From positions 1 to 38,062 of the forward strand of contig QHWJ01000335.1 of the NCBI GenBank assembly GCA_003222535.1: 38,062 nt of DNA, given 5' to 3'. Positions 32,957 to 34,155 of this stretch are shown piece after piece; within the stretch, counting starts at the first letter, position 1; each line of letters begins with the position of its first letter. The notes beneath the pieces are model-generated. The model searched no databases and was not told the DNA's origin. It was given only the letters and a program-made list of their open reading frames with translations. This DNA comes from Acidobacteriota bacterium (GTDB lineage Bacteria; Acidobacteriota; Vicinamibacteria; Vicinamibacterales; CAVVIG01). The translations under genes and the position numbers were made by a program.

Positions 32957-33436
32957 TCAGAGATACGCCATCAGACGCCCCGCGGTGACCGCTCCGGCCC
33001 ACAACACCAGCGACAGTGCCGCCAGGCGTCCGCATGGCCCCGGTCCGGCGTCCGCTTCGCGGAGCGCGGGCCCGCGCTCCAGCGTCCTTCGGATCACCGC
33101 GGTGACAACCAGCGCCAGTGCGATGAGCGTCAGCTTGATGTAGAAGACCGGCTGTCCGGCCTTCGTCGTCGCATCACTGGCGAAGAGCATGGCGCCGGTC
33201 ACGGCATTGATGACGAAGCCGGCCCACATGAAACGGTACAGGGGAGCCAGCGACGGAATGGGCAGACGCGGCGCGAACCCGAGCAGCCTGAAGTCAATCA
33301 CGGCGTTCGCGCCGACGAGCACTCCGAAGCCCACGGTGTGCAGCGTCAGAACGGTCGGATAGGCCCAGATGGAGGGCGACTCGCGCGTCCACACGCCCAC
33401 CGCCGAGCCCTGCAGCCACGTTGTAAAGCCCGTCAC
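32957..33436 (-). CDS. DUF6644-like membrane protein, paralogue of neighbour
   Basis: A 159-residue integral membrane protein. It aligns with the 32456-32944 product: GFTTWLQGSAVGVW at the start, helix one with LTLHTVGFGVLV, then IDFRLLGF, FMWAGFVINAVTGAMLF and a basic connector RRTLERG. The GTG at 33436 is chosen because homology starts there; the frame stays open upstream, but that part is the MITE-like element at 33494-33657, not coding sequence. No Shine-Dalgarno is visible before the GTG, so the true start remains uncertain. It should be expressed with the DUF6152 gene unless the element blocks transcription. Confidence 0.72.
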   Translation of the reverse strand: MTGFTTWLQGSAVGVWTRESPSIWAYPTVLTLHTVGFGVLVGANAVIDFRLLGFAPRLPIPSLAPLYRFMWAGFVINAVTGAMLFASDATTKAGQPVFYIKLTLIALALVVTAVIRRTLERGPALREADAGPGPCGRLAALSLVLWAGAVTAGRLMAYL

Positions 33437-33493
33437 TGCCGAATCAGGAGCCGCGAAGCAGTACCGCCGGTTCACATTTCTGGGACACGCTCG

Positions 33494-33657
33494 TAGTGTC
33501 CCGTAACAGTGATTCGTTGCATAAGTCCCGGAGCGCGGCGCCCGGATGGCAAGGCGCGAGGAGCGCGCATACCGGGAGTATGTAAGCGACGAGCAACGCA
33601 GCCAGCCGGGATGCCCCGCCCGGGAATTATGTGACGAATCACTGTTACGGGACACTA
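33494..33657. mobile_element. 164-bp MITE-like element with 24-bp perfect terminal inverted repeats
   Basis: The first 24 bases (TAGTGTCCCGTAACAGTGATTC and two more) equal the reverse complement of the last 24, ending at 33657; similarity continues inward for about 15 more bases (CATAA and TCCCGG). Both ends begin with TA, which would fit a TA target as used by IS630/mariner-type elements. The interior is GC-rich with nested palindromes and has no transposase. Its right repeat supplies the stop codon (TAG on minus, 33655-33657) of the DUF6152 gene, and the body separates that gene from the DUF6644 pair. A nearby GGGACAC at 33482-33488 could also pair with the left end. Confidence 0.85.
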
Positions 33658-34062
33658 GCGCGGAGTGTATTCACCTCGCCCCCCGCGAGGTCCGACAGGA
33701 GTCCCGTCCGCCTTCGTAAACGTCGCGCCTGTGATGCCGTGCGAGCCTGGGGCTCGAGACGGATTTCCCGCGACCTTGACCGCCGCGCCAATCGGGAGCG
33801 CGTCTTTCGCCCATGCCATCGACGGCACACCGCCCATTTCGATCTGCCACTCAATCTTCTGACCTTTGTCGTCGGCCGATTCGAGGAACACCCACGAATG
33901 CGGGTTCCTCACGAGGACTTTCGTGACGGTCCCCTGAGCCTCCACACGCTTGGTCTCGTCGTACGCCGCCGCGGCCGAATGATGGGCCACGACGGGCGTC
34001 GCGCGCGCCAGGAAGCCGGCGGTCAGCACCGATGCGAACAGAATCCGCGATCCAACTTTCAT
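33655..34062 (-). CDS. DUF6152 family exported protein
   Basis: A 135-residue exported small protein. The ATG at 34062 follows GGGAGG with an 8-base spacer and starts a signal peptide (MKVGSRILFASVLTAGFLA) that ends just before the hallmark HHSAAAAYD (His27-His28). The family pattern continues: RVEAQGTVTKVLVRNPHSW, then IEWQIEMGGVP, AVKVAGNPSR and a C-terminal glycine-rich end. The stop codon is the TAG inside the right inverted repeat of the MITE-like element, so the last residues may differ from the ancestral end. The N-terminal His pair could bind a metal (inference). It follows the PDLSG-W gene by 93 bases in the same direction. Function unknown. Confidence 0.85.
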   Translation of the reverse strand: MKVGSRILFASVLTAGFLARATPVVAHHSAAAAYDETKRVEAQGTVTKVLVRNPHSWVFLESADDKGQKIEWQIEMGGVPSMAWAKDALPIGAAVKVAGNPSRAPGSHGITGATFTKADGTPVGPRGGRGEYTPR

Positions 34063-34155
34063 CAGGAAATCCTCCCTACCGTTCTTCATTCTTTTTTCTT
34101 CCCAACCGTGCGTTCTCGAGTGCTTCGCGCTCGATCCTCTTCATTGTCGACTGTC

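Follow-up and report, generated by a model that had tools for sequence, protein, structure and literature searches.

An IS630-like miniature transposon at a DUF6152 stop codon contains a conserved structured core common to elements with different ends

The stretch of Acidobacteriota DNA analyzed here (the window, 38,062 nucleotides) contains a short inverted-repeat element whose right end includes the stop codon of a DUF6152 gene, raising the questions of what kind of element this is, what lies between its ends, and whether its arrival shaped the end of the gene. The first-pass annotation had taken it to be a miniature transposon (MITE) that supplied the stop codon and split a likely operon. 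The features at issue are the following.

33494–33657, plus strand: MITE including both copies of the TA target, 164 bp; 33496–33655 is the mobile part
33494–33517, plus strand: left terminal inverted repeat, 24 bp, perfect, TA included
33634–33657, minus strand: right terminal inverted repeat; the minus strand reads TAGTGTCCCGTAACAGTGATTCGT
33655–33658, no strand: CTAG junction; C33655 is the last element base and T33656-A33657 the target copy
33655–34089, minus strand: DUF6152 gene, 144 aa (PF19649, E 1.2e-20), stop TAG at 33657–33655
32957–33436, minus strand: downstream gene; orthologues point to a GTG start at 33436

Both the perfect 24-bp arms (33494–33517 and 33634–33657) and the MITE assignment held up on analysis: the element has IS630-family ends, a TA target duplication, and multiple copies. 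The perfect arms extend imperfectly to 57-nt arms with 81% identity, and the 164-bp element, folded as single-stranded DNA, reached −67.2 kcal/mol (z −12.5), which was equaled by 0 of 200 dinucleotide shuffles. Within the window, the 16-bp end gave 3 matches at ≤3 mismatches, 2 of them exact and corresponding to the element's own ends, compared to a chance expectation of 0.10; none of 100 dinucleotide shuffles reached 3 matches. A search of the genome for end pairs returned 36 end matches at ≤2 mismatches, compared to 3 for the reversed pattern, and the genome-wide search identified five identical 164-bp copies and two near-identical ones. Beside the five identical copies, the genome holds 10 more that are paired, fragmentary, or longer, and there is a longer 203/212-bp class with an extra GC-rich palindrome inside. 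The 164-bp copies are without a transposase gene. The window repeat is a genuine, recently active miniature transposon.

CTAG was present at both flanks in 9 of 12 paired copies and TA at both flanks in 11 of 12; the paired copies that depart from CTAG are the window copy (GTAG on the left, 33493–33496), C248 (GTAG on the left and a right flank lacking TA), and C362 (CTAA on the left). The GTAG junction of the window copy probably reflects the loss of one base. Flanks alone do not separate a 4-bp CTAG duplication from TA duplication within CTAG, and we adopted TA duplication because of the biology of IS630 and of ISY100, for which passages of PMC2170065 describe a TA duplication. Several contigs of the assembly, a MAG, stop inside or just past these repeats. 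The exact end pattern was found in 2 contigs of GTDB r220, both from Acidobacteria/Vicinamibacteria MAGs; searches of plasmids with the whole element and two cores, and of IMG/VR with the end pattern and two core patterns, gave no matches.

Reduced and compound forms were also observed. At three loci (G000:C39:57941–57955, L043; G019:C302:2745, L092; G160:C34:16439, L097), two CTAG sequences enclose just 10–12 bases of one end (TGTCCCGTAA or TGTCCCGTAACA); these look like remnants, as though an element had departed without the tip of one end. At G000:C186:1109–1124 (L045), two end tips facing each other have fused to form a palindrome of 24 bp with TA on either side (TA-GTGTCCCGTAACATTACGCGACAC-TA); this is in effect a minimal element joined end to end. 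The palindrome CCCCAACGCGGC(A/T)GCCGCGTTGGGG, itself dispersed, is inserted within several MITEs, for example the 203-bp copy at G000:C296:74844–75046, as well as within other repeats containing the core described below (L028, L035, and L036), and the resulting compound occurs at several places. The 203-bp copy at G000:C308:18183–18385 (L150) sits at a CTAG located one base away from where an unrelated IS630-type element ends. At G000:C55:7765–8067 (L039), a single MITE-type end directly follows the TAG stop of a gene and precedes a 15-codon transposase fragment, RANAYCERLIGTIRR, which we take to be rve-like; this locus is possibly a chimeric relic.

In related genomes, IS630-family elements share the ends of the MITE, GTGTCCCGTAAC, and its target, TA in CTAG. 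One of these IS elements, on contig C15 of G078, is 1191 bp long, lies in CTAG (CTA-GTGTCCCGTAAC..-TAG), and encodes a 374-aa transposase with DDE_3 (3e-23), HTH_32, and HTH_29 domains; these DDE_3 and HTH domains place it in the IS630 family, and the kinship of its transposase with the Shigella sonnei IS630 is judged from Pfam domains. An IS481-type element, our first guess from TGT..ACA and CTAG, was rejected because the IS with these ends carries a DDE_3 transposase. TGT..ACA within CTAG is a hallmark of IS481; an rve transposase occurs complete only once in the genome, in C174, at a locus with no TGTCCCGTAA-type end.

The IS end closest to the MITE ends was in G040, where both MITE ends matched the end on the C-terminal side of the transposase at 24 of 28 positions (0/200 shuffles). 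Compared to the complete IS elements of L154 and G078, both MITE ends matched the C-terminal-side end at 24–25 of 32 positions but the other end at only 17–19 of 32. Because both of its ends resemble a single IS end, the MITE did not arise from such an IS simply by internal deletion. Nearly all IS630 copies with placeable ends lie in C[TA]G. An IS with the same ends, the counterpart for which the first-pass annotation advised a search, is present in related genomes, but the search of the window's own assembly yielded no complete parent IS with these ends, only two IS630-type matches. Judged by its ends and target, the element is a Tc1/mariner-type (IS630-family) MITE, and a MITE with IS630 ends and CTAG targeting is of a known kind.

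Between the ends lies a core with a structure of its own, comprising the following parts.

33537–33611, plus strand: conserved structured core, 75 nt, common to MITEs with other ends
33557–33593, plus strand: GA hairpin, three tandem G.A modules and an apical stem
33558–33559 with 33591–33592, plus strand: G.A module 1
33561–33562 with 33588–33589, plus strand: G.A module 2
33565–33566 with 33584–33585, plus strand: module 3, G.A plus C.A in the window copy
33568–33572 with 33578–33582, plus strand: apical stem

Among 40 cores of the window's own genome, 90.6% of pairs were standard and covariation was 0.314, compared to 0.096 for shuffled alignments (0/500) and ≤0.092 for slid controls; 9 pairs changed on both sides and 17 further pair types were seen, values that 221 and 401, respectively, of 500 shuffles reached. 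In a MAFFT alignment of 30 cores from 27 genomes, 93.3% were paired and covariation was 0.400, compared to 0.130 for shuffled and ≤0.095 for slid controls, with 13 pairs changed on both sides (0/500 shuffles) and 29 further pair types (6/500). RNAalifold, unaided, returned a nearly identical fold. At the six module positions, G.A or A.G occurred in 26, 26, 29, 28, 30, and 24 of the 30 rows; four of the exceptions belong to a single family of genomes (L265, L266, L267, and L269), in which the first module consists of U-A and C-G pairs. Rfam gave a single match in the window, RF04104 MIR918 at 45.5 bits compared to a gathering score of 268, which we judged to be chance, and none at E ≤ 1 for nine other core loci.

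A 28-base core pattern at ≤3 mismatches found 67 copies in the window's genome and 0 for the reversed control. With model R1, the core was present in 63 of 396 Acidobacteriota genomes and 44 of 211 genera (E ≤ 0.001), and in 47 of 338 good assemblies; copy numbers for each genome are to be read as "at least", with up to 12 candidates scored per genome. The same model on a 400-kb control gave three clear matches (two full, one cut), followed by noise from E 0.076. No core was found in 30 loci of autonomous IS630s (L151–L180) at E ≤ 0.01, with one weak match at 0.028.

The elements around the core are ~165 bp long and have at least six end types: TAGTGTCCCGTAACAG (the window element), TARCAGCCCGTGGTGAAAGTC (most copies), TAAGTGGTCCGTCGCG, TAAGGGYCCGT.., CTAGTGGCCTGTGTCGG, and CTAGTGTTCCGAGTGCG. 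By script, 9 of the 67 copies had no second end, some being cut by contig ends or shortened, and long terminal inverted repeats were present in 24 of 28 loci outside the window's genome (all but L263, L265, L267, and L269). For 16 representatives of different end types, a set that does not count the T3 representative L248, core identity averaged 81% (67–96%), whereas identity at end positions 9–38 was 53%, compared to 45% for shuffled sequences; in 55 of 120 pairs the ends were ≤50% alike and the core was still 80% identical. Several of these ends match different IS elements: those of L254 match L159/L160 (up to 22/28), those of L257 and L270 match L167 (24/28 and 22/28, respectively), and those of L023 match L154 (up to 24/28). 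The ends of L261 gave only a weak IS630 match, and in the set used no clear IS630 end match was found for TARCAGCCCGTGG (TARCAGCCC, the most abundant type), L024, L025, L026, L256, or L258. The TARCAGCCCGTGGTGAAAGTC end occurs 136 times at ≤2 mismatches in G000, on many contigs (e.g. C34:11689–11773), and thus more often than the core copies that bear it; this end type therefore exists with other interiors too.

Shared ancestry alone might account for a core common to such different ends, if an old MITE diversified, its ends tracked diverging IS630 transposases, and a functionless core merely lagged behind. Consistent with such descent, the position of the core (~42–46 bp from each end) and the total length (~160–170 bp, bar copies with an inserted palindrome) vary little between end types. 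We nevertheless regard this explanation as unlikely, as in neutral DNA the G.A modules would not be retained (24–30 of 30 rows per position) while the pairs between them swap among C-G, G-C, and U-A. The comparison with G161, a genome of another family with the same end type, also argues against it: only 10 of 164 positions differ from the window copy, 8 of these fall in the hairpin, and the left 52 bp are identical. The changes include a C-G to G-C swap (core columns 28–51), a C.A to A.G replacement (30–49), and the loss of one pair (32–47), and the difference looks as if either the tip of the hairpin had been exchanged or compensatory change had occurred. A more far-reaching reading, to which we give slightly less than even odds, is that the core is a previously undescribed, phylum-wide structured motif of three tandem G.A modules, RNA or single-stranded DNA, that spreads between the ends of several IS630 lineages, exchanging its ends and keeping a fold needed for propagation.

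A fold of this kind uses one strand, because a G.A module becomes C.T on the complementary strand. RNA folding of four copies gave z-scores of −3.45, −2.38, −1.31, and −3.58 for the G.A strand, compared to −1.90, −1.46, −1.42, and −2.09 for the opposite strand. DNA parameters, applied to one copy, gave z-scores of −0.21 and −0.97 and did not predict the core fold; these parameters may give G.A pairs no credit, and RNA is therefore favored only weakly. None of the 67 core copies lies within a called gene, and gene 3′ ends face the core in sense and antisense orientation at nearly equal frequency (24 vs 25). A role in cis on neighboring genes was rejected, given this absence of orientation bias and the finding of no promoter or terminator in 33380–33760. 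A strand-specific fold without orientation bias suggests a single-strand role in propagation, and the core therefore probably serves the element itself, as RNA or as single-stranded DNA.

The same combination of a one-strand fold and no gene-orientation bias would also be expected if HUH/Y1 tyrosine transposases of the TIRYT/RAYT kind moved these elements, or at least the TARCAGCCC type, with the core acting as a single-stranded DNA hairpin signal, since such enzymes recognize hairpins in a single DNA strand; sections of PMC3733652 describe tyrosine transposases flanked by long terminal inverted repeats, with a distinct Acidobacteria group. The TA duplications, the CTAG target, and the close IS630 end matches of several types, the window's included, make this explanation quite improbable, and we retain IS630 transposases as the likely agents.

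We next consider the gene. The TAG stop of DUF6152 does lie in the right end of the element (33657–33655), as first annotated, and T33656-A33657, the target copy, provides its T and A. The further claim that the element supplies the stop and shapes the gene end mostly failed: the four closest element-free orthologues, in G022, G009, G018, and G020 (88, 84, 82, and 78% identity, respectively), end at the same last residue as the window gene, with C-termini ..GEYTPR or ..REYTPQ and stops TGA (G022), TAG (G018), TAG (G009), and TAA (G020). Relatives with the same DUF6152 end and no inverted repeat, which the first-pass annotation had named as a refuting observation, thus speak against gene shaping, not against the MITE, and the end of the DUF6152 protein is therefore older than the element. 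The G009 sequence is CAA TAG CGAG, and the window sequence minus the element is CGC TA(-) CGAG; with the ancestral CTAG deduced from the orthologues, the simplest account would be insertion at the TA of CGC TAG CGAG followed by loss of one base at the far junction. In the present TAG, the T and A come from the target and the G is the first base of the element, such that a stop base was replaced by the same base; what survives of the claimed stop supply is this G, the T, the A, and the protein end having been there already. That the element instead gave DUF6152 a new stop and shortened it is very improbable, for although an empty site with a GTAG rather than a CTAG target would read on for several codons, in all four close orthologues, which have no element, translation terminates after that residue, at TAG in two of them, and the CGAG after the TAG of one matches the window flank, given one lost base.

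The proposed splitting of an operon stands in part, as the gene that closely follows DUF6152 in relatives starts similarly (..F..WL..), and by counting the gap to the downstream gene grew from ~58 to ~218 bp with the element. A 232-aa ORF running across the MITE was rejected as the downstream gene, because orthologues place its GTG start at 33436.

CTAG is rare for the composition in 400 kb of G000 control stretches (L181–L200), with only 75 occurrences. By location, these 75 control sites comprise 20 at TAG stops of genes, 42 intergenic, and 13 within genes. Of 17 insertions in the genome, 9 coincide with the TAG stop of a gene, with gene calls from a codon-usage script; the count leaves out remnants (C39 and C186), diverged copies (C325 and C398), and degenerate single ends (C45, C209, C313, C340, and C412:10963), and the nine include the single-ended sites C55, C187, and C221, which have one flank available. 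By Fisher's test, 9/17 differed from 20/75 with p = 0.046 and from 20/62 non-genic sites with p = 0.16. A special preference for stop codons was rejected, as the CTAG target and the loss of gene-breaking insertions suffice. A CTAG-targeting element that starts with G can occupy TAG stop codons and leave the protein unaltered.

These results fit the following model. An IS630 transposase acting in trans, as the ends suggest, would recognize the ends, excise the element, and insert it at TA, preferably within CTAG, with duplication of the TA. The window element would have entered the TA of an existing DUF6152 TAG, where the target TA and its own first G would remake TAG and leave the protein the same. 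Between the ends, the predicted core of three tandem G.A modules, parted by co-varying Watson–Crick pairs, would function in single-stranded, folded form in the propagation of the element itself. As a whole, the account of a non-autonomous IS630 MITE that inserts at the TA of CTAG, rebuilt the DUF6152 TAG, and contains a shared folded core for propagation is one in which we have good confidence.

MITEs are usually viewed as two ends with filler between them. In these elements the supposed filler is conserved better than the ends and shows compensatory changes across the phylum, whereas the end sequences are different, several of them matching distinct IS630 lineages; whether a MITE needs a folded internal strand, and whether such a fold passes between transposases, are testable questions that follow. 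A conserved structured core common to different ends is apparently new, as no match in Rfam and no description in the open-licence PMC literature was found. The IS630 of Shigella sonnei, studied by Tenzen and Ohtsubo in 1991, reportedly prefers TA in CTAG, and thus has the same target as the window MITE, but is an autonomous IS. The TA duplication is as for ISY100, in the passages cited above (PMC2170065).

MITEPsy1 of Pseudomonas syringae, a 100-nt MITE with CTAG or YTAA as its target, shares CTAG insertion with the window MITE but has a 4-nt duplication and a probable ISPsy2 origin and is listed under IS5 with a question mark; the passages of PMC3189936 that describe it report no shared structured core. 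The CIR repeats of Caulobacter and relatives are likewise short repeats (~110 bp) and have a phylogenetically conserved proposed RNA secondary structure, but differ in their GANTC motif, two-arm fold, and partial MITE character, as far as the relevant part of PMC2229807 describes them. The TIRYT/RAYT repeats also form inverted-repeat families, some of them self-complementary, and occur in Acidobacteria among other groups, but depend on an HUH rather than an IS630 transposase, and TA duplication is not described for them in the corresponding sections of PMC3733652. A further close parallel is RUP of Streptococcus pneumoniae, which is linked with IS630-Spn1: like the window MITE, it is short, has no gene, carries TA at both ends and IS630-like ends, is multi-copy, and is thought to be moved in trans (PMC2229807). 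The passages of PMC2229807 on RUP give it no other signature of structure or function, whereas the window MITE has a conserved folded core common to MITEs with different ends.
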